IMG/VR virus record: IMGVR_UViG_3300037189_007807
Span: 1 to 39,768 of that record
DNA: 39,768 bases
Origin: a virus
Strand: one strand, 5' to 3'
Shown: positions 8,397-39,768 of the stretch, piece by piece
Numbering within the stretch: position 1 is the stretch's first letter
How the letters are laid out: each line of letters opens with the position of its first letter
Notes under the pieces: generated by a model
Seen by the model: the letters and a program-made list of their open reading frames with translations, nothing else
What the model was told of the DNA's origin: nothing
Database searches by the model: none
Translations under genes and position numbers: made by a program

Positions 8397-8399
8397 GTC

Positions 8400-8636: not shown

Positions 8637-8996
8637 CTACACCAGCTCCCAAGGCGGCTGCATCGGGACCAGTTGCGGCCCGCGCTTGGCGGCAAGGATG
8701 CCTGTCAGGCCTGCTCGCAGTTGCCCCACCGTTGGGCTGTCCTCGCCGGCGGCGGCATCGATGGCAGCTTCAACCCAGCCGGTGACAGCTGCAGGGGTGA
8801 GATCCGCGAATGGCACGAATGCCCCTGGCTCTGGCGAGGGCAGCAGCGCGCTGCCGTAGGCGTCCACGGCGTTCTGATCGTCTGCAGCAAGCAGCCGCCA
8901 GTGGATGCGCCGAACCACGTCCACCAGGCCACCCTCGGCCGGCGCAGTGTCGAGGCGTTCAATCAGCCACCCGAAGGTGACAGCGGGCTCAGGCAT
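8637..8996 (-). CDS. Hypothetical tail-region protein
   Basis: This protein has 119 residues from the ATG at 8996, which sits 4 bases after the upstream stop. A TTG 42 bases further upstream would lengthen it and overlap the previous gene. It contains TFGWLIERLDT and VVRRIHWRLLAADDQ, a pattern of short beta strands around Trp typical of small phage structural proteins. The C-terminal half is Ala-rich and helical. The place between fibre-type genes suggests a virion or assembly role. No enzymatic motif is seen. Confidence 0.55.
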   Translation of the reverse strand: MPEPAVTFGWLIERLDTAPAEGGLVDVVRRIHWRLLAADDQNAVDAYGSALLPSPEPGAFVPFADLTPAAVTGWVEAAIDAAAGEDSPTVGQLRAGLTGILAAKRGPQLVPMQPPWELV

Positions 8997-9000
8997 TGGT

Positions 9001-10346: not shown

Positions 10347-10349
10347 GGC

Positions 10350-12392
10350 TCAGTAGCTCCTGGAGATGGCAGCGCGGGTCACCTGGCTGCGGATGGCGCT
10401 GTTGAACGGCGGCCCACCCAGCTGCCCGCTGCGCGCATCGATCTGGAGGCCGCCGACGAACACCGCATTGCCGGCATCGTCCTGGCCGCTGAAGCGGACC
10501 CTGCCACCGTCGCGCTGCACGATGCTGCGCTGGATCCGGCGTGCGCTGCGTGCCGGCGGCACCCGGTAGAACTCGACCCCGGCCATCGGCCCGGTCCACT
10601 GGTGGTTGATGGCCGTGATCAGGCTGCGCAGCTTGCGGCGAACCGGCTCCACCGGCGACGGTGCCGGGCCTTGCCCCACCTCATACCAGTGGTTGTCCAG
10701 CGTCGCCTTCAGCCGCGTCACCAGGGCGTTCGTCATCGCCACGGCGCCGCCGCTGAGCTGGCCTCCAGCGATCAGGGTCGCCGCCAGCCGCTCCCAGCTC
10801 GCCTTGAACGCCGCGTGGAAGCTGTAGCTGTAGACGCAGGTGCCATCAAAGCCGAACATGCCTTCGGCGAAGTTGAGCATCGGCCGCTCAAAGCCATGGG
10901 TCAGCGATGCAGAAAGTGCATCGAGGAACAGGGCGGAGTCCTTGCGGGTGAGCGCCTCGAACCCGGCGGGCCATGACCCGGCCCCGTGGTTGGCCACCAG
11001 GAAGGCCCACACGTCGTTCACCAGGGCGGCCTTCTGCGCAGCGATGATCGTCCCCGCGGTGCCCTGGCTGGTGATCAGCGCTGGATTGATCGTCAGCGGT
11101 GCAATCTGCTGCGTGCTGCCTTCGCTCCAGAAGCTGTAATCCCCGAACTGGGAGCTGCTGCCGCTCACCACCATCTGGCCGCCATCGAGGCACATGAAAT
11201 GGCGGTGGGCGCCAACCCCGATCGCGTTGACCGGGTTGATGAATCCCCTGTTGCGGGCCACATAGCCCAGGCCATTCGCGCTGCATGGCGTGAAGCCCCA
11301 GGTCATCATGTTCGGGAACACGCTGTAGGGCGACAACACCGCCGCGTCGGCCAGGGCGCAGCCGCCTCCCTTCGGGTGGGCAGGGTTGCCGCCCGCTGCA
11401 TCCATCGGCAGCGGGGTGGGCACATCAGAGGCCAGCGAGCTGACGACGCAGTTCTGGCCATAGGGCACCCCGCCGGGGAGGATCACGGCCCCGGGCCTGA
11501 ACACCATGGCAAACCCCTTGGTGGGGTTGTCGAAATCGTCGATCTGCCAGCCGGTGAACTTCAGATTGACCAGGTGCGCGCCATTGCCGCAGCGAAACAC
11601 GTTGCGCTGCGCATTGCCGGCGGTGGGCTGGATCACCGTGCGGCGCTGGAAGTGCGCGCCCATGACGGTGCAGTTGTCGGGAACATCGAGCTCGCCTGCG
11701 GTGCTCAGCCCGTCCAGCAGCACCACGGTCCAGGGCCCCGGCTCAGCGAGGTTCTGCACCTGATCCAGGGCGTGTTCGATGTCGCGGAAGCCCTGGCTTG
11801 GGTTGCGGCCGGTGGCACGGTTGCTGCCGTCGCTGCGGACGTAGAACACCCTCGGCCGCTGGTCGATCGGCAGCGCGCCAATCGTGATCGGGGCAGTGCC
11901 GTCGAACAAGACCCCGTTGATGGTGCGGGGGGTCTGCAGCCGTGTCGCCGCCCCTGCGGTGTTCGCGTAGTTGGCGGCGCCGGCCTGGGTGGCGTAGTTG
12001 GCGGTGGTGGCGTTGCCGGCGGTTTCGGAGAGCGCGGCGTAGCGGCTGCGATCGAGCAGCTCCTGCACCACATAGAGGATCTGCTGATCAGCGGTGTTGA
12101 GGTCGAACTGGGTGAGGTTCGAGGCATCGGTCCACGGCACCAGCTGCCCGGAGCTCGGTGTCCGCCGCAGGATCGTCAGCGTGGTGCCAACTGCAGGGGC
12201 TGCCGTCAGCTGCAACGTGGTGTCGTTGACCCAGCTGAAGCCGGTCGGCTCGGCCAGCTCTTGGGTCAGCGTGTCCTCGAAATAATCCCAGCCATAGCCC
12301 ACCTTGACGTGCGCCCGCCGCAGATAGGGGAACGGCACGGCAAAGACTCTGGTGCTGCCGTCCCCGGAATAGGAGGCGTAGGAGAGGGGCAC
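10350..12392 (-). CDS. Tail fibre protein with T7 gp17-like N-terminus
   Basis: In this 680-residue protein the first ~115 residues match the tail-attachment domain of T7 gp17: YSGDGSTRVFAVPFPYL, TTLTILRRTPSSGQLVPW and FDLNTADQQILYVVQELL. A linker with NYATQAGAANYANTAG repeats is followed by a beta-helix-like centre (NCTVMGAHFQRRTVIQ, AHLVNLKFTGWQID) and a long mixed C-terminal domain. It attaches to the tail tube and recognises the host, or carries the adhesins encoded downstream. The start is GTG at 12392; no upstream ATG is in frame. It is larger than T7 gp17 (553 residues), and the C-terminal half is not recognisable. Confidence 0.88.
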   Translation of the reverse strand: MPLSYASYSGDGSTRVFAVPFPYLRRAHVKVGYGWDYFEDTLTQELAEPTGFSWVNDTTLQLTAAPAVGTTLTILRRTPSSGQLVPWTDASNLTQFDLNTADQQILYVVQELLDRSRYAALSETAGNATTANYATQAGAANYANTAGAATRLQTPRTINGVLFDGTAPITIGALPIDQRPRVFYVRSDGSNRATGRNPSQGFRDIEHALDQVQNLAEPGPWTVVLLDGLSTAGELDVPDNCTVMGAHFQRRTVIQPTAGNAQRNVFRCGNGAHLVNLKFTGWQIDDFDNPTKGFAMVFRPGAVILPGGVPYGQNCVVSSLASDVPTPLPMDAAGGNPAHPKGGGCALADAAVLSPYSVFPNMMTWGFTPCSANGLGYVARNRGFINPVNAIGVGAHRHFMCLDGGQMVVSGSSSQFGDYSFWSEGSTQQIAPLTINPALITSQGTAGTIIAAQKAALVNDVWAFLVANHGAGSWPAGFEALTRKDSALFLDALSASLTHGFERPMLNFAEGMFGFDGTCVYSYSFHAAFKASWERLAATLIAGGQLSGGAVAMTNALVTRLKATLDNHWYEVGQGPAPSPVEPVRRKLRSLITAINHQWTGPMAGVEFYRVPPARSARRIQRSIVQRDGGRVRFSGQDDAGNAVFVGGLQIDARSGQLGGPPFNSAIRSQVTRAAISRSY

Positions 12393-15830: not shown

Positions 15831-18800
15831 AGTGAGCAACCCTCACTCAGGGATTTGCGGCGGATCTCGTCGATCCGCTGGTTGTTGGCCTCGATCTGCT
15901 TCCATGCCGCCTGGTCAGCAACCTTGGTGCGGGCCTTGACGGGCAGGGGGCCAGCCTCATCCGTGAGCGTCATCGGCTCCGGCCGAATGGGGGCATCAGC
16001 CAGCTTCGCCTCCATCCGCGCCGGCGTCGAGTGCAGGATGTCGTAGCGCTTTAGGTACTCCTTGAGTTCCTGGGCCCCCATGGCCTCAGGCTCCAGATAA
16101 AACTGCTTGGCGATCTCGCCGGAATAGGCGGCATCCAGGATTTCGGCCACCTCTTTTGGCGGCAGATCCGCCGACGGCCTGGGCATCCCGGGGTCAATCG
16201 CCCGCGCGACCGTCTTTGAGAACGGAGCGATTTCGTCCGTGAACTGAGCAAGAAGCTCGATTACCTCGGGGGGCAGCTCGCGGTTGAGCTTGAAGCCCAC
16301 GCCAAGCAGGTAGTTTTTGATGCGCTCCCAAATCTCGATCAGCGGTTTAAGCGCTTTCGCAGTTTTAGCAGGAGGCGGGCTGTATTCACCCAGTTTCTTA
16401 GAAAGACGATCAAGCAAGTAGTCGGCCGCGTCCACCTTGCCGGCGCTGCGGTATGTGTCGGCCATGTCCCGGAGCAACCGCGCCGCGATGACTCGCTGAC
16501 TCCCCCACGCCATAAGCTCAACATTTTTCAGGGCCTGCGCGTCATCTGCGCTCATCATCTTAGTGGCCTCTCGGCGGAAGTATTTAGCCGATTCGTCGCT
16601 TGCCAGAACTTGTAGCTGATCCGGCGTCAAAAAGCGGCGCTGCATAACATGCACTGCTTCGTGAATGGCTGTCTGGGCCACCTCCTCTGATTCATGGTCC
16701 AAAAATACCCTGTTCTTCCGAGCAATAAGAACCAGGGGCTCCCTGCCCCAGTCTTCTCCGGCCGCGCCTTCAACATACCGAACCGTGCTCGGTTCGTTGC
16801 GGCCGTAGCCCGCCATGTCTGATTCGACGTAGGCCTGATCTGCTATCACTATTTTGCCCTTGTTGCCAGTGATTCTCCTGGCAAAGTCAATAATGTCTCG
16901 CTCGATGGCATCGGCAGCCCCTTCGTCGCCCAGGGTCCACATCCCTAGCCCTTTGCGACTGCCGACCCTGTTCAGCAGGTCACGGCGCTCGAACGTAGAA
17001 AGGCTGGGCCCGTAGACGAGTTTTGCAAAGTCCAGCGAGCTTTTGTCCCCCCTCTTGGCATCGAGGGGGATGCTTGCGTCGATAGATGGCCCCCTGGGCG
17101 GCTCCGGGTCGTAGCCGTCTGCCATGCCGAGCTGCTTCTTCTCCTCGAAGCTCTTGAGCTCGTAGCCGGTCGCGTCGCGCAGCCCCTCCTCGGCGATCCG
17201 CCGCATCTGCTGGTCGCGTTCGTGGAACTCCGCCGCCAGGCGCAGCTCATCCGCTGCCGCCTGCGCGCCGCGCGTGCCCGGTTGCGGCCGCGCTCCCTGC
17301 CCGTCGAGATCAGCGGTGGCCTCGCCAAGCGGCACGGTCGGCCCGTCCGGCAGTTCCGGCAGCTGCGACTCTGGCGGGCGCACCTCGCCTTCGCCGACCG
17401 CACGGCGGATCACGTCGATCTGCGCCGCCTGGCGCTGCTCCGGCGTGAGCTGGCGCGGGCCTGGGACGATGCGATCGGTGATCTTCCCGCCGTCGATGTC
17501 CTCGATCCCTGCCGATGTCTCCAGCATCCGGCGGGCCGTTTCGGCGTTCTTGGCGGCTGAGTCGCCCAGGGACCGCGCGATGCCCTCCATTTCGTCAAGC
17601 AGGGCCTGGGTTTCCGGGTCAAGCTGAACGGCATCCAGCTCCTCGCGGGTGGGCGGTGCGTCCAGTTCCGGCGAGTTCCCGCCGACAGGCCGCGCCATCG
17701 GCAGGCCCTGGTCCTCTGAGGCCCGCCGCACGGCCTCCACGATCCGGTCGCGGATCCGGTTGGCCACCACGCCTGGCTTGGCGCCATCTGCAATCTGCCG
17801 GGCACCCTCGTCGAGCAGATCGCTCACCGGGCCCGGGGCGTACTTCACGGCATCGAAGACACCCAGCACCGCCCGGGCGTCCATCGCCTGGCTGGCGCTG
17901 CCCTCGACGCTGATCTTGTTGCCCGCCTGCTGCAGCCGCTCTGCCTTCTTGCCGACCTTGCCAAACAGGTTCTTGTCGCTGGTGAGGTCCGCCCGGATCT
18001 TGGCTGCGAGCGTGCCCTTCTCTACCGCCAGGGAGAGGGCATCGTCATTCATGCCGAACAGATCGAGCAGGGTTGTCTGCGGGTTGTCCCCTGGCTTGGT
18101 GACCGGGGCGCTGCGCACCTGTTGCAGCACCTCGTTGAACGCCGCATCGCTCATGTCCCGGTTGCCCAGGATCTTCACGGCGGCCTGCATCTGCCCCTCG
18201 TCGAAGTCGGCCCCGCCCAGGGCAATCGCCTTCCCCTGCGACAGCTTCCCGTCGATCGCATCCTGGAAGATGTTGCCCGGCAGCTTCGACAGCGCCAGGC
18301 CCTTTGCAGAGTTGCCATCGCTCATGGGCGCACCCATGCGCTGCAGCTGCTCGGCATCGGTGATGCCGCTGTCGCGCATGAACTTCGCGGCATCGAACAC
18401 CGTGCCGCGACCCTCCTTGATGTTCGACAGCGCCCCCAGGGCCCGGGCCTCCTCGGCGGTGGCGGCCACCAGCTCACGCACCGGCACGGTGGGGATGCCG
18501 AGCTGCTTCGCCCGGGCCAGCCGGTTATGGCCGTTCACCACATAGGTGATGCCGTCAGCGGGATCGGTCCACACATCGATCACGCCCTCGGCAACGGTGT
18601 CCCAGCGGCTCACGCCCGACAGGCTGTTGCCGATCTGCTCCCCCTGCTCGTTGGTGCCCTGCTTGAACTGGAACCGCTGCGGGTCCGCCTGGATTTCGCC
18701 AACCGGCCGGAATGACTGCTGCCAGTCGCGCGCCAGCAGTTCCTGCCCCGTCTCCTCCCGATACCGGGCCAGGCCCTCGATAATGTCGGCCCTGGTGAAC

Positions 18801-20407
18801 TCCTCGAAGTCGCGGCCGGTGGCCTCCGTGATGATCTGCGCCAGGTCGGGATTGTTCTCCGGCGCCGCCACGCCCCGCAGCGTTTCGAAGCGCACCGACT
18901 CCAGGGTCTGCTCGTAGGTCTGCGGCTGCCCTTCGCGGCCCATCCGTTCGGCCACATTCCCGGCCGGTGCCATCACCCGGCCCTGCTCCAGCTCGGGCTC
19001 CACCGGCAGCCCCTGCCGTGCGGTCAGCAGTTCATCGATCCGTGGCACCACGGGGCCCGGCTGCTGCAGCAGGCCCAGGAGGTCCTCGTCGTCGAGGTCG
19101 CGGACCAGGTTGAGCACCACATCTGCTTCAGGCAGGGCCGGGTCGTAGATCAGCTCGCCGGGATCGATGACCTCGCCGTCGACGGCCAGCGGGCTGTCGC
19201 CGGCACCGGCCGGCTGCTCCGGTGCAGCAGGGCGATCCGGTGCGGCCGCGGTGGCAGGCGGCTCCGGTGCAGCGGCTGGCGCTGCTCCCCCAGCGGCCGG
19301 GGCCGGTTCCGCTTCCGGGGTGCGGCCGGCCTCGATCCAGTTGTCGATCTGCTGCTGGGCCTGGGCCTCGCCTTCAGGATCACGGAACGACGTGGCGCCG
19401 GTGGTGGGGTCCGTCTCGGTGATGCCGGCCTGCTCGAGCTGCTGCCGCGCACCGGTGCGCTCGGTCCTGACGCGGGACTCCGACAGCCAGCGGCGGGTGT
19501 GACGCAGCCCGGCGACGCCAGCACCCAGGCCCGATAGCGCCACCCCCGGCACAGCGTTGGGCAGCAAGCTCTTGAACGCCGAGTCGATCCAGTCGTCGCG
19601 GCCCACGTCCACCGCCAGCGGCAGGCTCAGCCCGGCCGCCTCGCCCAGGTTGGAGATGTTGCCGCCGCGGTTGTCATCAAGGAAGGTGCTCAGCACCTCG
19701 CCAGCGGCCCAGCGCGCGCCACCAGTGAGCGCAAGGCCGGCGGCGCCGGTTCCCATGGCGGGAATCAGGGGGACAACGGCGCCGGTCGCCGCTGCGGACG
19801 AACCAACGCTGCGGACGGTGAGGTCCAGGTTCCGCTCAAAGTCGTTCTGCCGGCTGGGCGGCGTGGCCCCATAGAACGAGTAGGCGGATTCAACCAGTCG
19901 CTCGATCGCGTTGCCGGCGGGGCTCGCCTCAGGGTTGGCCCGTTGCCCCCGCATCTTCTGGCCGACGGAGACGGCGAACTTGGCGGCGTTTTCCGCCACT
20001 CCAACGGACAGAGCTGCGACCACGTTCCGGCCGGTCTGGCCGCCTGGCGGGTTGATCAGCGGGGCGGCGAGGCCAAAGCTGGGGGCGACCACCCGCCTGA
20101 TCGTGTCCGCCATGCCGGACGATTGCGCCCCCCGCCGGTTGGTCTCTGCCACCTTCCGGCCGATGTAGCGCAGCTCGTTGCCGATGACCCCGATCGGGTC
20201 GCTGAAGATGCTGCGGTTCAGCTTGCCGGTCTGCTCCAGCCGCTTGAACGATGCTGGCGACTGCCAGCGCCAGCCAGGGCCGGCCCACTGCACCCGGCGG
20301 CCGCGCAGCACAGATGCGCTGCCGATCGGTCGGTCGGCATCGGTGTAGCGCTGCTTGCCCTGGTCGGGAACGACGGGCTGCCCGGCGCCGGTGAGCTTGA
20401 GGGCCAT
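15827..20407 (-). CDS. Giant polyvalent internal virion protein (ParB-like and HEXXH peptidase domains)
   Basis: This 1526-residue protein is in the gp16 position. After a ~300-residue N-terminal part with hydrophobic Gly/Ala stretches and an Ala/Pro linker (about 370-410), a ParB-like/sulfiredoxin fold appears around residues 600-720 with YVVNGHNRLARAKQLGIP (G626-H-N-R). A zinc metallopeptidase motif HEAVH (H1249, E1250, H1253) lies in QTAIHEAVHVMQRRF. Multi-domain proteins combining ParB, peptidase and other modules are known as polyvalent proteins and are delivered with mobile DNA. It may be ejected with the genome and act on host targets. The peptidase region (about 16.3-17.1 kb) is visibly lower in GC, as if inserted. 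The start has a strong Shine-Dalgarno, GGAGGT, 8 bases upstream. Confidence 0.75.
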   Translation of the reverse strand: MALKLTGAGQPVVPDQGKQRYTDADRPIGSASVLRGRRVQWAGPGWRWQSPASFKRLEQTGKLNRSIFSDPIGVIGNELRYIGRKVAETNRRGAQSSGMADTIRRVVAPSFGLAAPLINPPGGQTGRNVVAALSVGVAENAAKFAVSVGQKMRGQRANPEASPAGNAIERLVESAYSFYGATPPSRQNDFERNLDLTVRSVGSSAAATGAVVPLIPAMGTGAAGLALTGGARWAAGEVLSTFLDDNRGGNISNLGEAAGLSLPLAVDVGRDDWIDSAFKSLLPNAVPGVALSGLGAGVAGLRHTRRWLSESRVRTERTGARQQLEQAGITETDPTTGATSFRDPEGEAQAQQQIDNWIEAGRTPEAEPAPAAGGAAPAAAPEPPATAAAPDRPAAPEQPAGAGDSPLAVDGEVIDPGELIYDPALPEADVVLNLVRDLDDEDLLGLLQQPGPVVPRIDELLTARQGLPVEPELEQGRVMAPAGNVAERMGREGQPQTYEQTLESVRFETLRGVAAPENNPDLAQIITEATGRDFEEFTRADIIEGLARYREETGQELLARDWQQSFRPVGEIQADPQRFQFKQGTNEQGEQIGNSLSGVSRWDTVAEGVIDVWTDPADGITYVVNGHNRLARAKQLGIPTVPVRELVAATAEEARALGALSNIKEGRGTVFDAAKFMRDSGITDAEQLQRMGAPMSDGNSAKGLALSKLPGNIFQDAIDGKLSQGKAIALGGADFDEGQMQAAVKILGNRDMSDAAFNEVLQQVRSAPVTKPGDNPQTTLLDLFGMNDDALSLAVEKGTLAAKIRADLTSDKNLFGKVGKKAERLQQAGNKISVEGSASQAMDARAVLGVFDAVKYAPGPVSDLLDEGARQIADGAKPGVVANRIRDRIVEAVRRASEDQGLPMARPVGGNSPELDAPPTREELDAVQLDPETQALLDEMEGIARSLGDSAAKNAETARRMLETSAGIEDIDGGKITDRIVPGPRQLTPEQRQAAQIDVIRRAVGEGEVRPPESQLPELPDGPTVPLGEATADLDGQGARPQPGTRGAQAAADELRLAAEFHERDQQMRRIAEEGLRDATGYELKSFEEKKQLGMADGYDPEPPRGPSIDASIPLDAKRGDKSSLDFAKLVYGPSLSTFERRDLLNRVGSRKGLGMWTLGDEGAADAIERDIIDFARRITGNKGKIVIADQAYVESDMAGYGRNEPSTVRYVEGAAGEDWGREPLVLIARKNRVFLDHESEEVAQTAIHEAVHVMQRRFLTPDQLQVLASDESAKYFRREATKMMSADDAQALKNVELMAWGSQRVIAARLLRDMADTYRSAGKVDAADYLLDRLSKKLGEYSPPPAKTAKALKPLIEIWERIKNYLLGVGFKLNRELPPEVIELLAQFTDEIAPFSKTVARAIDPGMPRPSADLPPKEVAEILDAAYSGEIAKQFYLEPEAMGAQELKEYLKRYDILHSTPARMEAKLADAPIRPEPMTLTDEAGPLPVKARTKVADQAAWKQIEANNQRIDEIRRKSLSEGCSL

Positions 20408-32655: not shown

Positions 32656-32825
32656 CAGCTGAGTGCCTCCCGTTGCTCTGCATGCCAGCGCCGGATGCAA
32701 TCGAGCACCCGACGCTCGCCGATCCAGTGGTCGATCTCGCGGTGGGTCATTGATGCGTCAGGGACTCGACCGAAGTTCGCGTCGAGCTTGTCCATCAGTT
32801 CGTCAGGGACCAGCAGCGGGAACAT
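32655..32825 (-). CDS. Small hypothetical protein (56 aa)
   Basis: This protein begins MFPLLVPDELMDKL and ends with EQREALS. It has charged helical content with RVPDASMTHREIDHWIGE. The stop overlaps the start of gp7.3-like paralogue 3 (TGATG), and the start lies 18 bases after the exonuclease stop, so it fills the operon gap exactly. The family is not recognised. Reading frame, couplings and amino-acid balance support a real gene. Confidence 0.6.
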   Translation of the reverse strand: MFPLLVPDELMDKLDANFGRVPDASMTHREIDHWIGERRVLDCIRRWHAEQREALS

Positions 32826-32843
32826 TGCACCATTGCAGTGCTC

Positions 32844-33599
32844 TCAGCCTACCGGGGGCACCCAGAGGCGGACAGCCTGATTCTCCATGTCGTACTCGCC
32901 AGCGCGCAGGATCCGCGCGCAGCGGGCCTGAGTGATGGCGTAGTAGGGCGATAAAGCCTTCCGCGCGTATGCGCTCACGACAGCGGCCCACATTTCCGCT
33001 TCCGTGGTGCAACCGGCCAGGGCCTTCTCGGCAGCGACCGGACCGCAACCGGGGCAGCCCGGGTAGTTGTCCGTCGCGTCCCCGGTGAGGACCTGGGAGT
33101 AGAACGCCCGGTCGGCCTGCAGCCGATTCACCTCCAGGATTTCCCCGTCGCGCAGATGCAACCCAGGGATCGTGAGGATGTCCTTGTCCACTGAAGCGAT
33201 CACGTCGCCTTCCTGGTAGAGGACGCCGAGCACGTCATCGCCCTCGATGTCAGGCAGGCAGGCCACCTCCCATTCACGGGCCGGCCCGGCGGCGTGGACC
33301 CACTCGACCAGCTGCCGGTAGCCAGCTGGCCGCCGGTATCGCTTGCGGTTGGCCTTGTACTGGGGCCACACGCCATAGCGAAAGGAGGAACGATCGCTGA
33401 ACACCAGCGTCACCCGATGGTCTGGGACGGTGCTGCGGATCTCGCCGATCATGTCCTGAAACTGGGCCTTGGCATCGCCGTGGCGACAGGTATAGGTCCA
33501 GTCATCAGGCGCCCATTCCGTCTCAACCTCACACGCTGCGGCGGCGCGATACAGGTAGACCTCAGTGTCGATCAGAACGCGGGGGGGTGGTGTAGTCAT
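32844..33599 (-). CDS. 5'-3' exonuclease (T7 gp6-like, FEN family)
   Basis: This protein has 251 residues from the ATG that overlaps the upstream stop (ATGA). The metal-binding acids of the FEN/gp6 family are present: LIDTE (D11), VFSDRSSFR (D69), DIEGDDVLG (E119, D121, D122), SVDKDILTIPG (D138, D140) and TGDATDNYPG (D174, D177). YKANRK (81-86) matches the same motif in T7 gp6. It removes RNA primers, digests host DNA and takes part in recombination. In T7 it acts beside the phage polymerase; here no phage polymerase is encoded in the window. Confidence 0.93.
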   Translation of the reverse strand: MTTPPPRVLIDTEVYLYRAAAACEVETEWAPDDWTYTCRHGDAKAQFQDMIGEIRSTVPDHRVTLVFSDRSSFRYGVWPQYKANRKRYRRPAGYRQLVEWVHAAGPAREWEVACLPDIEGDDVLGVLYQEGDVIASVDKDILTIPGLHLRDGEILEVNRLQADRAFYSQVLTGDATDNYPGCPGCGPVAAEKALAGCTTEAEMWAAVVSAYARKALSPYYAITQARCARILRAGEYDMENQAVRLWVPPVG

Positions 33600-33787
33600 C
33601 GCCTGCCCGCGGAATGCTGGCAAAGCAGGCAATCAGCACCGAGCAGGTCGGCACCGCGCAGGTCGGCGCCGGTCAGGTCGGCACCGAGCAGGTCGGCACC
33701 GAGCAGGTCGGCCCTAACGGCATTGGGCTCATGATTTAGCCATGCCTTGTGCAGTCGGAGGATTTCGGTGAGTTGTTCGGGTGTCAT
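33596..33787 (-). CDS. Small pentapeptide-repeat protein
   Basis: This 63-residue protein has an N-terminal helix (MTPEQLTEILRLHKAWLNH) followed by five pentapeptides of the A-D-L-x-G type (residues about 26-50). It ends CLLCQHSAGRR, with C-x-x-C-x-H, which could bind metal. Pentapeptide proteins form a right-handed quadrilateral helix, and some mimic DNA to inhibit gyrase. Five repeats are too few for a full gyrase mimic. It overlaps both neighbours by 4 bases. The function is unknown. Confidence 0.65.
   Translation of the reverse strand: MTPEQLTEILRLHKAWLNHEPNAVRADLLGADLLGADLTGADLRGADLLGADCLLCQHSAGRR
33635..33709. repeat. Five tandem 15-bp units encoding pentapeptides
   Basis: Units with plus-strand consensus GCACCGAGCAGGTCG repeat five times without gaps, three of them identical. 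Near-identity at DNA level, including third positions, points to recent slippage expansion. Confidence 0.85.
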
Positions 33788-33930
33788 GAGCGGCTCAGTT
33801 CGTTAGCAATGGCCCGCAGCGTGTCGGGCGTGATGGGCTGGCGTTCCATCTGGCTGGCCAGTTCCAGCAGTGTGGCGACTGCGACGGTCACGTCAGACGC
33901 GCCATCGCAGGCATCAATGACATCCAACAT
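33784..33930 (-). CDS. Small hypothetical protein (48 aa)
   Basis: This protein begins MLDVIDACDGASDV and ends RAIANELSRS. It is a mostly helical acidic peptide with TVAVATLLELASQMER. The stop overlaps the start of the pentapeptide gene (ATGA), and the start overlaps the upstream gene by 17 bases. The family is unknown. It is supported by coupling and by continuous coverage of the operon. Confidence 0.55.
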   Translation of the reverse strand: MLDVIDACDGASDVTVAVATLLELASQMERQPITPDTLRAIANELSRS

Positions 33931-34090
33931 TTTCTGCCCCGCCGGGGTACTCGGGGCGGGCGGCGAACTTGTAAGGTTTGCTGATGAGTTGTGCTCCAGC
34001 CGCCTGGCTGATCTTGATGACCTTGGGTTCTACGACCAGAGACGGTGTGGCTGCCATGGGTGTGGTGGTGGTGGTGGTGGTGGTGCTCAT
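33914..34090 (-). CDS. Small hypothetical protein with Thr run (58 aa)
   Basis: This protein starts MSTTTTTTTTPMAATP, the Thr run coming from a CAC/ACC trinucleotide tract at about 34059-34086. It continues with EPKVIKISQAAGAQLISKPY. The ATG overlaps the upstream stop (ATGA). The trinucleotide tract can slip, so the number of Thr residues may vary. No domain is recognised. Confidence 0.5.
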   Translation of the reverse strand: MSTTTTTTTTPMAATPSLVVEPKVIKISQAAGAQLISKPYKFAARPEYPGGAENVGCH

Positions 34091-34311
34091 GGTTGAACCT
34101 CTGCGGTGCAGTCGGGCCAGCGGTTGCGGCAGTAGCTGCTGGCCTTGGCCTTGCTCGGTGCCGGGATGGTGACCACCATCTTGCGCCGATCGGGCCATGC
34201 CACCAGCACGCGATACATGCGGGTCCGCTCATTCGGCTTGGGTCGGCTGACACCAGGCCCCAGGCTTGGCGTTGGCCCATCCAGAAGCGGCCTTGGCTGG
34301 AAATAGCTCAT
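34087..34311 (-). CDS. Small basic hypothetical protein (74 aa)
   Basis: The ATG overlaps the upstream stop (TGATG). The N-terminal third is Pro-rich. The C-terminal part has RMYRVLVAWPDRRKMVVT and SSYCRNRWPDCTAEV, with two Cys and many Arg/Lys, suggesting nucleic-acid or protein binding. The end resembles short DNA-associated phage proteins, but I do not recognise a family. Confidence 0.55.
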   Translation of the reverse strand: MSYFQPRPLLDGPTPSLGPGVSRPKPNERTRMYRVLVAWPDRRKMVVTIPAPSKAKASSYCRNRWPDCTAEVQP

Positions 34312-34484
34312 CACTCATTCTCCATTTGTAGGATGGTGTTGATGGCGTGAAGGTAGCCCTCCCACCATGTGGTGCTGTAGCTTTCGCGTTCCCTGCATTT
34401 GCTCAGCGTTTGTCGGGCGTTGTCCCGAAGTCGAACGATGGCGGCTCGCTCAACGTCGAGCGTTTCTTGTCGGGTGCTGGACAT
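34311..34484 (-). CDS. Small helical hypothetical protein (57 aa)
   Basis: MSSTRQETLDVERAAIV is followed by KCRERESYSTTWWEGYLHAI, ending NTILQMENE. It is a charged helical protein with a Trp pair. It overlaps the end of the upstream gene by 82 bases in another frame, which is unusually long for this operon. One of the two starts or genes may be wrong. The stop couples to the next gene as TGATG. Confidence 0.5.
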   Translation of the reverse strand: MSSTRQETLDVERAAIVRLRDNARQTLSKCRERESYSTTWWEGYLHAINTILQMENE

Positions 34485-34651
34485 TCGATGTTGCGTTGGT
34501 CGTGGATGTTTACGGTGATTTGGCTGTTTCCGCGCAGGATCACAACCATGCAGCTCCGGCTGCGGACAGCGACCACTTGCGCGCTGGCCCAGCCGCCCTG
34601 GTAGCGGACCCGCACCGGGTCGCCGACGGTGTAGGCATCGGTCCAGGTCAA
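34403..34651 (-). CDS. Small hypothetical protein, SH3/Tudor-like pattern (82 aa)
   Basis: The start is TTG overlapping the upstream stop (TTGA). The pattern YTVGDPVRVRYQGGWASAQV followed by SRSCMVVILRGNSQITVN resembles a small SH3/Tudor-type beta barrel, where GD-V-V and a Trp begin the first strands. Such barrels bind proteins or nucleic acids. The C-terminal 25 residues are low-complexity and overlap the next gene in another frame. Confidence 0.5.
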   Translation of the reverse strand: MTWTDAYTVGDPVRVRYQGGWASAQVVAVRSRSCMVVILRGNSQITVNIHDQRNIECPAPDKKRSTLSEPPSFDFGTTPDKR

Positions 34652-34866
34652 AACCAGGTCCTCCTGCCCACACCTCGGGCGAACGCCTCCATGTCCCGAA
34701 ACGCCCGGTCGTAGAACTCCGGGTGCTCGGTCAGAAAGCCGGGCTGAGGCAGCACATGCTCACCGGGCCTGCTGCTGCGGTTGAACTGGTCGATCGACCA
34801 CAGGCCGCCGATCAGGCCGCGTTCGAGGATGCGCTGGAGTTCAGGGCCACCGATCAGGGGCTGCAT
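34648..34866 (-). CDS. Small hypothetical protein (72 aa)
   Basis: MQPLIGGPELQRILERGLIG starts inside the end of the previous gene (13-base overlap). The C-terminal half has PGFLTEHPEFYDRAFRDME. It is helical with aromatic residues. The family is not recognised. It lies among small replication-region genes. Confidence 0.55.
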   Translation of the reverse strand: MQPLIGGPELQRILERGLIGGLWSIDQFNRSSRPGEHVLPQPGFLTEHPEFYDRAFRDMEAFARGVGRRTWF

Positions 34867-35399
34867 GCTTCCGCCTCCGCGTGTCGCTGTGCGGCCTCCC
34901 ATTCGGCGACGCTCGCCAGGTAGGCCTGCCAGTCCTCGTCCGTGATGCCGCGCGCCTCCTCGCTCTGCCCTGCTGGCAGGGCCGGCCGGCCTGGGGCCGT
35001 CACGGCGTAGGCGCCAGAGTTGTGCGAGTCGGGCGGCGGCAGCTGCGACTGCGGCTGACCGGGCAGCTGCGCCAGCTGGTCGGGCTTGAACGCCACGAAA
35101 GCGGGCAGGTCGGGCCTCGGTCCCCAGCTGCGGTTCGCCAGCCCCGCCTCGCAGCGGAACAGGGGCGCCATCAGCTCCCGCCAGGTGGGGTAGCGATGGA
35201 AGCCACTGTCGAGGCCCTGAATCCAGCGCTCGGCGGCCCACATGAACTGGGCTTCGCTGATCTCGGGGAACTCGCTGGTGAACGAGTGGAACTTCAGACG
35301 GCAGACGTGTGGCGTCCACCGATCGACCTCCTTCAGTCGCAGATGGGCGGCGACCATTTCGGCCACCGCCAGAAAGGTCTCCGGTGTCAGGCTGGCCAT
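34854..35399 (-). CDS. Hypothetical replication-region protein (181 aa)
   Basis: The ATG lies inside the end of the upstream gene (13-base overlap). The N-terminal ~100 residues form a helical domain with RWTPHVCRLKFHSFTSEFP, AQFMWAAERWIQG and FHRYPTWRELMAPLFR. The last pattern, a Trp-rich helix followed by P-TW-ELM-PLF, recalls phage helicase-loader or replication-accessory proteins, but I cannot name a family. The C-terminal half is a Pro/Gln linker plus a short acidic helix. It sits where T7 would have primase-helicase, so a role in recruiting the host replisome is possible and unproven. Confidence 0.6.
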   Translation of the reverse strand: MASLTPETFLAVAEMVAAHLRLKEVDRWTPHVCRLKFHSFTSEFPEISEAQFMWAAERWIQGLDSGFHRYPTWRELMAPLFRCEAGLANRSWGPRPDLPAFVAFKPDQLAQLPGQPQSQLPPPDSHNSGAYAVTAPGRPALPAGQSEEARGITDEDWQAYLASVAEWEAAQRHAEAEACSP

Positions 35400-35989
35400 T
35401 GCTCCAGCGCGGCGAGCATGGAGGGGTGCTGCGGCATGGGGCGGCCGCTGGCCGTCGGCACCTTGGCCCGGCCGTGGTCGAGGTAGTCGACCTTGAGCGC
35501 CTGCCAGCCGTTCTCGACGCCGGCTTGGCAGAGGGCCAGCTGCTGATCTGCGGGCAGATCGCCGACACGCCTGCAGCTGCTCAGCCAGGCCGCCTCGGTC
35601 CAGGTGGCACGGTTCCCCCACTTGGAGCGCCGCGCCTCGCGCCACCACTGCAGCAGCAGCGGCGCGGCCTCGGCGGCGATGCCGAAATCCTGCGGCGCCT
35701 CGGAGGGCATGAACCGCGCGCGGCGGGTTCTCGGCTCGGGCTCAGGCTGGGTCTCGGGCAGCGTTACTGGGATTCCAGTAGCGGGGGCCTGCTCTGGATC
35801 TGGGGCGGCCGGGGGATCCTGAGATACCTCCATCCAGCCGGTTCTGGGCCCAAACCAGACTGCGACCCGCTCGATCGTGGAGAAGGTGCGGCCGCAGCTG
35901 CGGCAGAGGCGGATGCGGCGGTCGCCTCCCTTGTCGGCCCTGGTTTCGGTGACCCGGTGCCGATCGTGGTTGCAGTGGGGGCAGTTCAT
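35387..35989 (-). CDS. NrdR-like zinc-ribbon protein with helical C-terminal domain
   Basis: This protein has 200 residues from the ATG that overlaps the upstream stop (ATGA). MNCPHCNHDRHRV and LCRSCGRTFSTIERV give a four-Cys zinc ribbon (C3, C6, C29, C32) very like the NrdR N-terminus. The ATP-cone that follows in NrdR is absent. Instead there is a Pro-rich linker (residues about 58-90) and a helical domain with LLLQWWREARRSKWGNRATW and ALCQAGVENGWQALKVDYL, a pattern seen in phage replication-organiser proteins. It may bind DNA through the ribbon and recruit replication proteins through the C-terminal part. This is inference. Confidence 0.65.
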   Translation of the reverse strand: MNCPHCNHDRHRVTETRADKGGDRRIRLCRSCGRTFSTIERVAVWFGPRTGWMEVSQDPPAAPDPEQAPATGIPVTLPETQPEPEPRTRRARFMPSEAPQDFGIAAEAAPLLLQWWREARRSKWGNRATWTEAAWLSSCRRVGDLPADQQLALCQAGVENGWQALKVDYLDHGRAKVPTASGRPMPQHPSMLAALEQWPA

Positions 35990-36171
35990 CGCTCCTCCTT
36001 CGGGGCCCACTCGCCGCACCAGTCCTGGAAATGGACCTCGGGCCAGGCGTTGGGGCCCTGCTCTTGCACAGGCCGCGGCGCATGCCGTCGGCACTCACCC
36101 ACCTCTGCGTCTGGAGGTAGCAAGTAGCGGCAGTTCTCGCATCGTTGTTGCTTGACAGGAAGGAAAGACAT
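35986..36171 (-). CDS. Small Cys-rich protein, putative zinc finger (61 aa)
   Basis: The start is at the ATG overlapping the RusA stop (TGATG); an ATG further upstream would overlap RusA by 55 bases. C11 and C14 (RCENCRYLL), C27 (GECRRHAP) and C52 (DWCGEW) could bind one zinc. The pattern C-x2-C ... C-R-x-H-x-P ... W-C-G-E is found in many tiny phage proteins of unknown function. It is located in the replication cluster. Confidence 0.6.
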   Translation of the reverse strand: MSFLPVKQQRCENCRYLLPPDAEVGECRRHAPRPVQEQGPNAWPEVHFQDWCGEWAPKEER

Positions 36172-36524
36172 CACCAAATCACGGACAAAAGGATGGTTTG
36201 ACTGTGCCGTGGGGCTTGTTTCCATTCGGCCTCAATCCGCCGAATCACGGTCACCCGGTCGTCGATCCAGATAATCCCCCGGCCGGCGTCGAGAACGGCG
36301 CCGGCCAGGTTGTCGAGGTCGCTGGTGCCAGGACCGCAGAAGGTCAGCTGAAGCGCGATGACTTCGCCCTTGCCGAGCGGCGGCCGGGTCCACCATTCAG
36401 CCAGGATTGCGCGCGCTGACCGCATCCACTCCCGGTAGCGGTCGCTGGTGTAGGCATGGCCAGAGAAGCGCGGGCGTGCTTTGGGCTGCAGCGGCAGGGG
36501 CAGCTCGAAAAGGGCTTGCTGCAT
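36171..36524 (-). CDS. RusA-like Holliday junction resolvase
   Basis: This 117-residue protein is about the size of E. coli RusA (120). PLQPKARPRFSGHAYTSDRY is the N-terminal signature (PxxKxRPRF, Y-W). The acidic cluster SDLDNLAGAVLDA with D69, D71 and D79, then IIWIDDRVT (D88, D89), matches the RusA metal site. It cuts four-way junctions before packaging. T7 uses endonuclease I (gp3) for this task, so the enzyme has been replaced. The ATG overlaps the SSB stop (TGATG). Confidence 0.9.
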   Translation of the reverse strand: MQQALFELPLPLQPKARPRFSGHAYTSDRYREWMRSARAILAEWWTRPPLGKGEVIALQLTFCGPGTSDLDNLAGAVLDAGRGIIWIDDRVTVIRRIEAEWKQAPRHSQTILLSVIW

Positions 36525-37174
36525 CAGAACGGCGCTTCCTCGTCGTCGAGGTCGTCCTGAACAGCCGCACGCCGCTGCAGCCGCTGGCTGGGCGGCAGCG
36601 TGTCATCGGTCTCGCCAGCCGAAGCCGGCGGAGCGGTGACATAGCCGTTCTCCTTCTCGAACGCATCCGCCGGATCGCGCTGCTGGTACGGCACCAGGTC
36701 GAGGATCTGCACGGCCTCCAGCGAAAGCGAGACGCCTTTGCGGCCGAACTTGTCTTCCCAGCCCCAGCAGCTGAATGCGACCTTGGCCTTGCTGCCGTTG
36801 CCGATCAGCAGGCCCTGGGGCCACGGGTTCTTGTGCGAGTCGTAGACCGCCGGCGCCTGCAAGACGCTGCCCTTCTTGGTGGTCTCGTTCTTCTTGAATC
36901 GGAACTCGAGCAGGCCCGTTGCGGTGCCCTCCCGGTCCACCTGGTCGCGGAACGGCCATGCGTTCTTGGATGGCTTCGCCCCTTCCCCATGCAGGCGGGC
37001 GAACTCGCCTTCGATGGTCTGCATCAGGGCGACCGTTTCGGGGTCCCGCACGTCCCCGCACCAGCTGATCGACCAGCTGCGGGGCTTGCTCTCGTCGAAG
37101 CGGTCTTCCTCGGGCTCAAAGAGCTTGGCCCAGTAGGCATCGCCTACTGGGGTCACGACCGTTTGCCGCGCCAT
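36524..37174 (-). CDS. Single-stranded DNA-binding protein (gp2.5-like)
   Basis: This protein has 216 residues from MARQTVV; an ATG 9 bases upstream is also possible. The strongest sign is the C-terminus, QDDLDDEEAPF: an acidic tail ending in Phe, the hallmark of T7 gp2.5-type SSBs that contact replication partners. The middle is beta-rich with KAKVAFSCWGWEDKFG and VSLSLEAVQILDLVPYQQ, as expected for an OB fold. It coats ssDNA and promotes annealing. It is the first gene after RNA polymerase. An AGGAGG (37209-37214) lies about 25 bases upstream of the first possible ATG, farther than usual. Confidence 0.8.
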   Translation of the reverse strand: MARQTVVTPVGDAYWAKLFEPEEDRFDESKPRSWSISWCGDVRDPETVALMQTIEGEFARLHGEGAKPSKNAWPFRDQVDREGTATGLLEFRFKKNETTKKGSVLQAPAVYDSHKNPWPQGLLIGNGSKAKVAFSCWGWEDKFGRKGVSLSLEAVQILDLVPYQQRDPADAFEKENGYVTAPPASAGETDDTLPPSQRLQRRAAVQDDLDDEEAPF

Positions 37175-37208
37175 GTGCTGCATCCATGCAGAGTTCTGTA
37201 GCAGTCTG

Positions 37209-37240
37209 CCTCCTAGTAGCTGCAGTGGCAACCACCTAGG
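37209..37240 (-). promoter_or_regulatory. Gap between RNA polymerase and SSB with CCTAGG/CCTAGT
   Basis: CCTAGG (37235-37240) spans the RNA polymerase stop codon, and CCTAGT (37212-37217) lies 20 bases on, next to AGGAGG. Both hexamers resemble the elements in the left intergenic region and upstream of capsid. It could hold a promoter or RNA-processing site for the middle genes. Chance is possible, because one copy contains the TAG stop. Confidence 0.3.
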
Positions 37241-39632
37241 AGAACAGGTACGGGTTCGAGCCGATGCGCTCCGGCGCCAGGTCGCCCACCATGGGCGGCG
37301 CCATGTAGGGCGGAATCCCTGCAGCGCAGGCGATCTCGCGGCCGATCTCCGGCAGCCAGTCGGGCTGGTAGAGCGTTCGTGCTTCGCGCGAAAGCGTCGC
37401 AGCAAGCCAGTCGGCATGGCAGGGCGACACCGCGAAACAGTCGTGATTCGGCAGCATGTCGATGCCATGCACTGCAGCCCTGCAGCACACCTCCCAGGCC
37501 AGCGCGGCGTCGAAGCTGTGGATCAGGTTCGCGGTGATGCCCCTGGCGGTTTCCCGCGCGCTCAGCTCCCCCGGCTGCGGCTGATCCATCACGGTTTGCC
37601 AGCTCCGGCGACCGTGCAGCAGGGTCGGAACCCGCGACCGTGCCGCCACGGGCCGGCCGATCTGGATTGGCAGGCCCATCGGGGCGGTCCATGCCAGCGG
37701 TCGGTTGCGCGCCATGCAGGCCCTGCTCAGCCCCCGCAGCCAGGCCTGGAGCTCCATCGCTGGCCGCAGCCGGGCGCCCACCACCACCCCAAACCGCTGC
37801 GCGAGGTAGCGGGCTGGCACCAGGCGCTCGGCCTCCAGCCGGCCCAGCGACACCTCGCCTTCCGCCTCGTCCAGCAGGGCGGCCAGCTGCTCACCGACCC
37901 CCAGCAGCTGGGCCCCGTACACGCCCGTCATCACCGGGCCCTTTGCCATGGCGCGCGTGATGCCCCGCTCCAGCCACACCGCTGCCAGCCGCTGCTCTCG
38001 GATCGTCCCGGCCTCGAGGTCGCTGCGCAGCAGCCGTGTCACCTCCTCGGCCACCTGGGCGTAGAGGTCGTGGCGGCTGGTGCCGATCAGGTTGGTCGCA
38101 CGGGCCAGGCCCCGATCGCGGGTCAGCGCGGCGATGATGCCCGGCCCTGATGTGGTCTGATCCAGCCGGATCAGTTGGCGGATCGGCTGGGAGGGGTCCT
38201 GCCGCCAGAGCTGCAGGGCACGGCAGAGCGAGAGGAACTGCCAGGGGTCCTTGGCATCACGCCAGAGATCAACCCTGTCCAGCGGCTCCTCGGCGCAGGC
38301 GAGCATCTGATCGATCCGCTCCTGCCCCCACGCCAGCCGTTCATCCCATGTGCCCCGGTGCCCCCAGTGACCGGCGGCAGCCTTCAGGATCCAGCCGACC
38401 GCAGCGCTGTCGCACGGGGCGCCGGCCACCAGGACCGCAGCCTTTTCGTGGTCCGGGCCCTGATGCGTGGCGCCCCGGTTGACCGTGTAGATCCTGCCCC
38501 TGAAATCCAGGCTGTAGCTGAACCAGCAGGGGCGGCCGGCGACCTCCTCCATGCGGCGCAGCGACCGCTCGATCTGAGCCCGGGCATCGGCGCCGGTGAT
38601 GCGATCCCGATGCGCCCGCTGGCTGTCGCGCTGCCAGCGGCGGAACGCTTCGGGGCCGACGTGCTCCTCCGGCCGCGGCGGCGCCGTGATCGGATCGCGC
38701 TGGATGGGGAACAGCCCGCGCAGGTTCGCGTCCCATGCCTGGCGCTGGTGCTGCACCATCCAGGGGTCGATCTCCAGCGGCTGGCGCTGCAGGGCGTTGA
38801 TCACCGCGCAGGCGCGATCCAGCCGGCCCTCCAGGTAGTCGAGGCTGAGGCCTTGGCGAGAGCGCACCAGCGGCTCGCGGCTGCCGAGATAGCCACCGCC
38901 GCGCATGCCCTGCCACGGCCGCGGCGGCACCAGCATGGGCAGCCGGCTGGGCCTGTGCGGTGCCGGCGGGTGGGCGGCGATGACGGCAGCCAGCTCAGGG
39001 CCGGGCTCCAGCTGCTGGCCGCGGCGGCCTGAGGTTGCCGTCGTTCGCACAAGGCCGGTTTCGGCCTCGATGATGTGGAGCAGGAATGCCCCGGCCTGGA
39101 ATCGCTCGGCAGCGCTCCATGGCCTGGCTTCAATCCGCAGCTGCTTCAGCCGCGCCACGCTGGCCAGGGCCTTCCCGTGGCGGCGGCGCGCAACCCGCAG
39201 CAGATCGGCGCCGCGCTCCTCGATCGGCAGCGCGCGCGTTTCCAGCTCGATCGCGGTGCCGATCGCGCTTGCGGTGGCGCGGTGGCTGCTGCGCCGGCTG
39301 ATGCGATCGATCAGGGCGCCGAGCGCCACCGCGGCAATGGCCCGGGGCCCCTTGCGGCCCAGGCCGACCAGCTGGGCGATGCCTGCGTGATACGGGCCGG
39401 CGACCAGCTGGCGCGAGATCGCCTGGCCGATGGCGTGCTCGAGCGCCAGCGCCACGGCTTCGCCATGGGCGGCGAACAGGGCCCGCCCGTATTCGGTGAC
39501 GGACTCCCGGCCCTGCCGCTTGAGCCTCTCGCGGGCGATCCGGGCGCCCTGCGCTGCAGCCTCCAGGGCCTGGATTTCCAGATGCCGCTGGGCCGCCTCA
39601 TCGCCTGTGGATGAACTGCCGGATGCAGACAA
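37236..39632 (-). CDS. T7-like single-subunit DNA-directed RNA polymerase
   Basis: This 798-residue protein compares with 883 in T7. Catalytic motifs are present. Motif A is LIRLDQTTSG with D491 (T7 D537). Motif B is ITRAMAKGPVMTGVYGA with R560, K564 and Y572 at the exact T7 spacing (R627, K631, Y639). Motif C is LPNHDCFAV with H730 and D731 (T7 H811, D812). Also seen are LDFRGRIYTV (375-384) and PPRPWQGMRGGGYL. Motif A has SGPGI where T7 has SGIQH. The N-terminal domain is shorter and Arg/Ala-rich. The start is TTG at 39632; an in-frame TGA lies 39 bases upstream and no in-frame ATG exists. It transcribes the phage middle and late genes from its own promoters, after host transcription from the right edge. 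Confidence 0.95.
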   Translation of the reverse strand: MSASGSSSTGDEAAQRHLEIQALEAAAQGARIARERLKRQGRESVTEYGRALFAAHGEAVALALEHAIGQAISRQLVAGPYHAGIAQLVGLGRKGPRAIAAVALGALIDRISRRSSHRATASAIGTAIELETRALPIEERGADLLRVARRRHGKALASVARLKQLRIEARPWSAAERFQAGAFLLHIIEAETGLVRTTATSGRRGQQLEPGPELAAVIAAHPPAPHRPSRLPMLVPPRPWQGMRGGGYLGSREPLVRSRQGLSLDYLEGRLDRACAVINALQRQPLEIDPWMVQHQRQAWDANLRGLFPIQRDPITAPPRPEEHVGPEAFRRWQRDSQRAHRDRITGADARAQIERSLRRMEEVAGRPCWFSYSLDFRGRIYTVNRGATHQGPDHEKAAVLVAGAPCDSAAVGWILKAAAGHWGHRGTWDERLAWGQERIDQMLACAEEPLDRVDLWRDAKDPWQFLSLCRALQLWRQDPSQPIRQLIRLDQTTSGPGIIAALTRDRGLARATNLIGTSRHDLYAQVAEEVTRLLRSDLEAGTIREQRLAAVWLERGITRAMAKGPVMTGVYGAQLLGVGEQLAALLDEAEGEVSLGRLEAERLVPARYLAQRFGVVVGARLRPAMELQAWLRGLSRACMARNRPLAWTAPMGLPIQIGRPVAARSRVPTLLHGRRSWQTVMDQPQPGELSARETARGITANLIHSFDAALAWEVCCRAAVHGIDMLPNHDCFAVSPCHADWLAATLSREARTLYQPDWLPEIGREIACAAGIPPYMAPPMVGDLAPERIGSNPYLFS

Positions 39633-39744
39633 GGTGCGGCAGAGGTAGCGGCATGCACTTATTACACCTCACCCCTGCAGAGCGCAGGATGCAGGCCCCA
39701 GGCCCAGGCCGGGCCAGTCATCTGCAGGGCTGCAGAGTTTGAGA

Positions 39745-39761
39745 ACGGATTATGAGTCCGC
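39745..39761 (-). other. tRNA-Met(CAU)-type anticodon arm, possible attachment-site core
   Basis: On the minus strand GCGGA-CTCATAA-TCCGT forms a 5-bp stem (one G-T) with a 7-base loop. The anticodon CAT sits at the canonical position between CT and AA. The flanks GCA before and T after also fit bacterial tRNA-Met. Beyond that, no T-arm (TTCGA) follows in the window, so this is not a complete tRNA gene. P-SSP7-type podoviruses carry a tRNA-matching segment, so an attP core is plausible. The 5' half would lie outside the window. Confidence 0.5.
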
Positions 39762-39768
39762 TGCATTC

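Follow-up and report, generated by a model that had tools for sequence, protein, structure and literature searches.

A T7-like cyanophage lineage without DNA polymerase or gp4 and a gene pair at the gp4 slot that may serve as initiator and helicase loader

Which machinery copies the DNA of a T7-like phage that has neither a DNA polymerase nor the gp4-type primase-helicase? T7 is the textbook self-sufficient replisome. The question is raised by a stretch of 39,768 nucleotides, the whole of IMG/VR virus record IMGVR_UViG_3300037189_007807 (hereafter the window), in which a preliminary description had noticed a T7-type RNA polymerase (RNAP) and an exonuclease but no polymerase or primase-helicase. 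Profile searches of the window bear this out, with no match to family-A DNA polymerase (DNA_pol_A), the primase-helicase phrog_239, DNA polymerase III (Pol III) alpha or DNA polymerase B (Pol B). The genes considered here, p028 and p029, are adjacent and stand where related phages have gp4. In our preferred reading, to which we give a probability of about 0.6, T7-type transcription is kept and replication is initiated via the O-like protein p028, together with p029, and the host replisome. The closest isolate found is the cyanophage S-SRP02 (MW822601), and the genes on which the argument turns are the following.

37236-39632, minus strand: T7-type single-subunit RNA polymerase (phrog_414, E 1.4e-122; PF00940, E 3.1e-43; the S-SRP02 match extends to 39599)
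36524-37174, minus strand: gp2.5-like single-stranded DNA-binding protein (SSB; phrog_112, E 8e-23 on the longer frame 36524-37468; S-SRP02 SSB, 71%)
36171-36524, minus strand: Holliday junction resolvase of RusA type, standing in for T7 endonuclease I (PF05866, E 2.5e-8; phrog_140, E 1.9e-12)
35387-35989, minus strand: p028, NrdR-type zinc ribbon followed by a C-terminal domain; at the gp4 slot, and a candidate for the replisome organizer (PF22811, E 3.8e-9)
34854-35399, minus strand: p029, lineage-specific; shares 13 bases with p028, and its position makes it a candidate helicase loader
34648-34866, minus strand: gene of 72 amino acids (aa) after p029
32844-33599, minus strand: gp6-like 5'-3' exonuclease (PF02739, E 2.8e-12; phrog_107, E 4.7e-52)

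The two enzymes are missing well beyond the window. Family-A DNA polymerase is matched in none of 63 records (the window, 27 others and 35 added later), and phrog_239 in three of them, S37-C6, S31-C1 and the distant G023 (3/28 of the first set and 0/35 of the added one); Pol III alpha and Pol B are each matched in 0 of 33 records. Among 14 control genomes the same profiles found DNA_pol_A in 10, phrog_239 in 14, Pol III alpha in 10 and Pol B in five. The 35 added records are contigs of more than 21 kb, new to the first set and drawn from the loci of the best 80 of 115 relatives, and 32 of them carry a T7-type RNAP.

Because many of the 63 records are fragments, the completeness of the relatives matters. 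Self-comparison of 34 records gave four with an overlap that is exact and reaches both ends (127 bases in G020, G024 and G042; 87 bases in G012), two with a less exact one (G008, 355 bases at 91%; G050, 1,545 bases at 95%) and two in which it lies slightly inside an end (G019, 297 bases at 98%; G006, 126 bases, exact). The S-SRP02 sequence was deposited as a circular record, and the two ends of S38-C3 share a repeat of 50 bases. These ten apparently complete genomes (eight from IMG/VR, S-SRP02 and S38-C3), all bearing the p028-p029 pair, have no match to either enzyme; absence from several complete relatives had been set beforehand as the test, and it is what was found. The absence of polymerase and gp4 is real, and is a trait of a lineage rather than of this record. 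Three further records (G025, G026 and G039) were rejected as complete on account of internal duplication and the lack of a clean wrap-around. In G039 (58,560 bases), positions 43839-58560 hold a second RNAP start and a second large terminase subunit (TerL) that is 41% like that of S-SRP02, against 92% for the first, and the record is probably two related phages joined via a common 4.2-kb stretch. In G046 the genes are fragmented at 18246-20294 and elsewhere, with the RNAP in six matches, as in a low-quality assembly or a decayed copy.

What occupies the vacant slot? The position of gp4 can be read from S37-C6 and S31-C1, where the gene is flanked by RusA and the exonuclease; p028 and p029 occupy this region in S-SRP02, S38-C3, the window and the IMG/VR relatives. 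Twenty-eight records were not selected via p029 (the window, 23 found by their RNAP and 4 named phages). Among these, p029 is present in 24, none of which has a phrog_239 match, and the records with such a match and without p029 are S37-C6, S31-C1 and G023. Another, G022, has p028 with neither a detectable p029 nor a phrog_239 match. No record was found to have both p029 and gp4. A scan of 50,697 phage records for p029 found it in S-SRP02 and S38-C3 only. The conserved 72-aa gene downstream of p029 is present in 23 of 34 records; S37-C6 and S31-C1 are without it. In S37-C6 the match to the gp4 profile (L025:21648-23561) crosses an in-frame TGA. At the other side of the pair, three relatives have a protein with an IDPGP motif between SSB and p028 (G015, L049:13817-14311; L187:7335-7811; G012, L043:6575-7042), standing where BLAST found no RusA; by eye it looks RuvC-type, which suggests that one junction resolvase was swapped for another.

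The protein p028 consists of two parts. Its N-terminus is a zinc ribbon, matched by PF22811 in 41 of 43 members at E<=0.5 and by the NrdR sequence in PDB (7p37) at E 2.3e-7, and residues 1-43 superpose on the NrdR fold with Z 5.1 and a root-mean-square deviation of 1.6. The NrdR ATP-cone is absent from the Pfam matches of the window member (E<=0.5) and from the 25 of 49 families listed for the 43 members. The C-terminal part is a helical domain with invariant WW and GW pairs. It is here that a resemblance to replication protein O appears. The profile phrog_678 ('replication initiation O-like') matches 13 of 18 members at E<=1 and 7 of 43 at E<=0.1, the best at 1.4e-5 (L022); all seven p028 matches listed fall on profile positions 213-312, and lambda O aligns at positions 4-216. 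When the domain stretch of L022 was compared with all phages by tblastn, S38-C3 and S-SRP02 came first, followed by eight Pseudomonas phage records at E of about 2, all with a single type of gene (its annotation is protein O or O-like in six, replication protein in one and hypothetical in one), and by two further hypothetical matches at E 7-10.

A hidden Markov model (HMM) of 12 O-type C-terminal domains, none of them from p028, was run on the 43 p028 members and 3,302 control open reading frames (ORFs) of the lineage, among which p028 frames were left in; p028 members take ranks 1-5 of the 3,345, with a best E of 2.8e-4. The ranks are not independent, because the p028 members are related. In profile-profile alignment with hhalign, p028 scores 21.2 against the 12 O domains, compared with 7.6 for the reversed alignment, and 21.6 against the first four of these domains, where 40 shuffles reach at most 15.0. 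These comparisons of sequence make it likely that the C-terminal domain of the p028 family is related to replication protein O.

For p029 there is no comparable trail, and it matches no known family. Pfam was searched with the S-SRP02 and S38-C3 copies; none of 17 members has a PHROG match at E<=0.1 (best 0.31), and there is no match among PDB sequences. A structure model of fair quality (mean predicted local distance difference test score, pLDDT, of 82) gave ten Foldseek matches in PDB at E<=10, the best at 1.4, and a best VIA-align Z of 3.3 among 25 chains, none of them convincing. In BFVD the S38-C3 homologue alone is significant; besides 25 other weak matches there are two to 'replisome organizer' models, with E 1.2 and 6.0. 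A relationship to lambda P was also tried and gave no signal, the score against P-type loaders being 15.6 and 40 shuffles reaching up to 18.6. The argument from position is a different one. The gene next to the O-type domain could be seen at 10 of 12 phage loci, and it is P/DnaC-like at eight, ATP-binding at one and hypothetical at one. Because the next gene at O-type loci is mostly P/DnaC-like, p029 is possibly a helicase loader.

A scheme of replication can be outlined from these parts. p028 would bind the phage origin through its zinc ribbon and, with p029, would load the host DnaB helicase; host primase DnaG and host Pol III would then copy the phage DNA. The recombination side of T7 replication is kept, judging by the genes for a gp2.5-like SSB, a gp6-like exonuclease and a junction resolvase, and these proteins would process recombining concatemers for packaging. 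In some relatives a short clamp-like protein could aid in the capture of Pol III; its gene is found at these places.

S-SRP02 (p014), L024:10903-11607: clamp-like gene
G008, L008:5038-5802: clamp-like gene
G020, L020:4494-5222: clamp-like gene
G050, 5922-6611: clamp-like gene
G053, 8101-8787: clamp-like gene

The S-SRP02, G008 and G020 proteins have 234, 254 and 242 aa; the short clamp-like protein perhaps has only two of the usual three clamp domains. In S-SRP02 it matches phrog_947 (phage DNA polymerase processivity factors) at E 2e-8 and PF02767 under its curated cut-off; it also matches a RusA-like PHROG at E 4e-8, and its two matches among PDB sequences include no clamp. The protein has a TDGHR motif and a C-terminus ending in LLMPVQIR, both of which resemble bacterial DnaN. 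It could help to attract host Pol III, and it is not general in the lineage. The S-SRP02 segment that holds the gene is missing from the window.

Several observations weigh against this scheme. The O-like signal is faint in the window itself, whose own p028 has no phrog_678 match and ranks seventh in the HMM search (E 1.8), behind one control ORF (rank 6, E 1.6). An O-type N-terminal domain is lacking in p028, which has the NrdR-type zinc ribbon at that end instead. The choice of O domains was in part made by eye: the first four of the 12 were picked for a motif out of 10 O-position proteins, those of VW-6S, zjk6, Edno5, 64E30.1, PAS61 and lambda were dropped before the HMM was built since no motif was seen at their C-terminus, and eight more were added through similarity to one of the four kept. 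The hhalign probability for p028 against the 12 domains is 6.8%, and one of 100 column shuffles scores as high (21.3). p029 has no significant sequence or fold match beyond its own family and does no better than shuffles against P proteins. The clamp-like gene is present in five of 33 records only, neither an origin nor iterons were identified, and IMG/VR classes the contigs as linear.

Whether the enzymes were simply cut off depends on the ends of the window, where these features lie.

964-1341, plus strand: homologue of S-SRP02 p013, the final conserved gene ahead of the left break
1836-3599, plus strand: TerL, 61% identical to S-SRP02, on the strand opposite to the virion genes
39712-39768, no strand: tRNA-like block at the right break, a probable attP, 84-88% identical to five relatives

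The IMG/VR record behind the window is one linear-classed sequence of 39,768 bases, and self-comparison found no end repeat joining its termini. By coordinate subtraction, the distance from the 5' end of the p013-type gene round to the RNAP start is 5.4-6.3 kb in G024, G025, G026 and G031, the four nearest relatives (TerL 89-92% identical to the window), and 1.1 kb in the window; relative to these, about 4.3-5.2 kb is missing. The window was accordingly rejected as a complete genome, for want of an end repeat and because this segment is absent. In the four relatives the matching stretch holds MarR, integrase and ArdC-type genes, the last confirmed by Pfam in G024 and assigned by sequence likeness in the others, and their records have no DNA_pol_A or phrog_239 match. 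Only G024 among the four is an apparently complete genome (TerL 89% and RNAP 62% identical to the window). The ArdC-type antirestriction protein is found in the early segment of relatives at L159:10101-11084 (Pfam-confirmed) and, by sequence likeness, at L155:7237-8187, L152:14952-15890, L162:14865-15833, L054:17940-18890 and L146:13758-14732.

Between integrase and RNAP, G024, G025, G026, G031 and G033 have a block that the last 57 bases of the window match with 84-88% identity across 50-57 bases. In S31-C1 a complete tRNA-Met overlaps the end of the integrase, and part of the right-end block agrees with it at 20 of 21 bases; in none of the other 13 stretches tested did ARAGORN find a complete tRNA. 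The contig, we infer, was broken at an attP of tRNA origin. Since the final bases match the integrase-RNAP block of relatives, the next gene should be the integrase, and a polymerase or helicase in the adjoining sequence is therefore not expected. What the window holds is most, and not all, of the genome of an S-SRP02-type cyanophage whose full length is probably about 44-45 kb, so the window's closeness in size to T7, which the preliminary description had pointed out, is accidental.

These results allow the rival explanations to be weighed. That the enzymes sit in the part of the genome missing from the contig had been raised by the preliminary description, which was right that the contig is incomplete: there is no end repeat, and 4.3-5.2 kb, about the room that T7 gp4 and gp5 need, is absent. 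The stretch is nevertheless filled by integrase, MarR and ArdC-type genes in the relatives, whose records match neither enzyme, and an integrase is expected immediately beyond the right end, so this explanation is very unlikely. It is also improbable, to a lesser degree, that a polymerase or primase-helicase is present and escapes the profiles by its divergence. Nothing was matched by many of the early ORFs, and for the polymerase-less MPP-C cyanopodoviruses the available text of PMC9860041 keeps this option; yet no ORF on the RNAP strand of the early and gp4-slot segments, part of which were profile-scanned, exceeds 392 aa, and the longest that lack an explanation (G020, 342 aa; L187, 342 aa; G015, 392 aa) do not occur in the window and are shorter than the 528-aa gp4 of S31-C1. 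A defective or satellite-like T7 relative that needs a helper phage would account for the loss of both core replication enzymes, but virion and packaging genes are kept, and S-SRP02, with the same layout, is an isolate for which the available text of PMC8790148 gives a growth curve and a burst size estimated at 50. We give this idea next to no credence.

A more serious rival, which we still judge doubtful, accepts the host replisome but not p028 and p029 as initiator and loader, and takes p028 for a zinc-ribbon regulator, with replication starting from RNAP transcripts or by recombination through SSB, exonuclease and RusA. T7 primes its origin by means of its own RNA polymerase; the ribbon is NrdR-type, the O-like signal of the window's protein is weak, and p029 has no match. 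What speaks for an initiator rather than a regulator is that p029 and gp4 share a slot and are never found together, that no NrdR ATP-cone is seen in the window member or in the families listed, and that the O-like signal recurs across several members by different routes. The preferred reading, initiation by O-like p028 with p029 and the host replisome, corresponds to the other option of the preliminary description, in which host enzymes and lambda-like replication are combined with the phage's own transcription. It is the better supported of the two, through the retained RNAP residues and the O-like domain; the use of host enzymes itself is an inference. The pair at the gp4 slot had gone unnoticed in that description. 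That this polymerase-less T7-like branch has also exchanged gp4 for an unrelated and unnamed initiator-loader pair, combining T7 transcription with a lambda-type hijack of the host's replisome and, in some members, a clamp-like protein, seems to us an even bet.

The transcription side can be followed in the RNAP. The window protein has D, K, Y and D at the columns of T7 D537, K631, Y639 and D812, the catalytic residues; across 32 aligned rows the Y639 column is F in two. In the tree of these rows the lineage, including S37-C6 and S31-C1, lies on one side (27 rows) of a branch supported 100/100, and P-SCSP1a is outside it on a long branch. The best tree needs two changes for the p028-p029 pair, and a single origin is found in 25% of bootstrap trees. 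A promoter search for 16-base words common to the gaps of S-SRP02 returned only an AC-rich leader before early genes. Near-identical copies of it stand about 20-31 bases ahead of the start codons at 10903, 11692, 12103 and 13986 in S-SRP02 (L024). Before ORFs starting with ATG, five records have one to five such leaders where 0.0 to 1.6 are expected, and the window has one (before ORF 33914-34057) where 0.5 is expected.

The remainder of the window can be described briefly. The minus strand carries RNAP, SSB, RusA, the zinc protein, the gp6-like exonuclease and the T7-type virion genes, and the large terminase is on the plus strand. The SSB and RusA genes that the preliminary description placed between RNAP and exonuclease are both there, and its full virion set is likewise recovered as a T7-type virion set with TerL: portal, scaffold, capsid, tail A/B, internal proteins and TerL match those of S-SRP02. 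Two of its details did not hold. Of two Cys-rich zinc proteins one was found, there being a single minus-strand frame of at least 40 aa with two CxxC pairs in 32700-37300; and to say that every stretch is occupied by genes was too strong, since 33600-34650 is weakly coding, with ORFs 33888-34280 and 34311-34673 having GC at third codon positions of 0.60 and 0.55 against 0.77-0.87 for seven other genes. ORF 33596-33787, which overlaps the exonuclease start by 4 bases, looks pentapeptide-repeat-like by eye, and 15-base tandem repeats lie at 33633-33712; G020 has a longer ORF of this kind between p029 and the exonuclease. The virus is one of freshwater cyanobacteria, its hosts probably being Synechococcus or Cyanobium. 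In bacterial genome assemblies, relatives of p029 were found on two contigs, each in a Cyanobium bin.

A phage that has T7 transcription, lacks both replisome enzymes and can be cultured opens the swap to experiment, and suggests that in T7-like phages transcription and replication are modules that can come apart. Through p028 and p029 one might also gain a hold on the DnaB/Pol III replisome of cyanobacteria. Surveys that count cyanopodoviruses by their DNA polymerase gene would overlook the lineage. The published tree of S-SRP02 is affected too: the available text of PMC8790148 (Zhang et al.) gives ORF 34 as 'DNA polymerase I' and uses 'DNA polymerase' in a concatenated tree, and the gene so annotated (L024:22389-23129) is a 5'-3' exonuclease by Pfam and PHROG. 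The 'DNA polymerase I' of S37-C6 (L025:20750-21481) aligns to the same exonuclease. The words 'primase' and 'helicase' have 0 occurrences in the main text of that paper, whose available passages do not report the absence of the enzymes. A search covering part of the literature, mostly at the level of titles and opening lines of abstracts, surfaced the S-SRP02 and MPP-C papers; neither the p028-p029 pair nor the loss of both enzymes was found reported there. The pelagiphages possessing PolA described in the available text of PMC9599517 have no bearing here. Loss of DNA polymerase in T7-like cyanophages is already published (MPP-C, with gp4 kept; PMC9860041, available text).

Among known systems, S-SRP02 is the closest found. 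The window fits the 'S-SRP02-like cluster' of PMC8790148 by synteny and by RNAP and TerL relatedness: gene order is the same, identities are 61% for TerL, 67% for the exonuclease, 62% for p029 and 47-48% for RNAP, and both have the p028-p029 pair and no polymerase or gp4 match. Unlike the window contig, S-SRP02 has the clamp-like gene. S37-C6 and S31-C1 (MedDCM group G9; Oinezvirus and Nohivirus) share the RNAP branch, the synteny and the lack of a polymerase match, and carry integrase and MarR genes; they differ in having gp4 at the slot (phrog_239, E 8e-124 and 6e-119), no p029, and an 87- or 61-aa zinc protein only in place of p028. The MPP-C cyanopodoviruses are, like the window (an incomplete record), T7-like cyanophages without a DNA polymerase gene, with a single-subunit RNAP in P-SCSP1a. 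According to the available text of Cai et al. (PMC9860041), their core of nine genes includes DNA primase/helicase, and the authors propose that their DNA is copied by host Pol I, by host Pol III or by a polymerase that has escaped recognition. The P-SCSP1a annotation (1-12000) has gp4 and endonuclease I and no polymerase, whereas the window has neither gp4 nor endonuclease I, and p028-p029 and RusA instead.

Compared with T7-like phages at large (the Autographiviridae label), the window has the RNAP and the virion and packaging genes, without gp5 and gp4. LUZ100 (PMC10134795) and ProddE are annotated with RNAP, SSB, exonuclease and integrase genes, and LUZ100 with MarR, but both keep gp4 and gp5. 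Phages with O and a P/DnaC-like loader (lambdoid and PAJU2-type) differ in that p028 has a zinc ribbon in place of the O N-terminal domain and no kinship of p029 with P is seen; they share with the window the arrangement of two adjacent genes, and the p028 family appears weakly akin to the C-terminal domain of their phrog_678-type O proteins.

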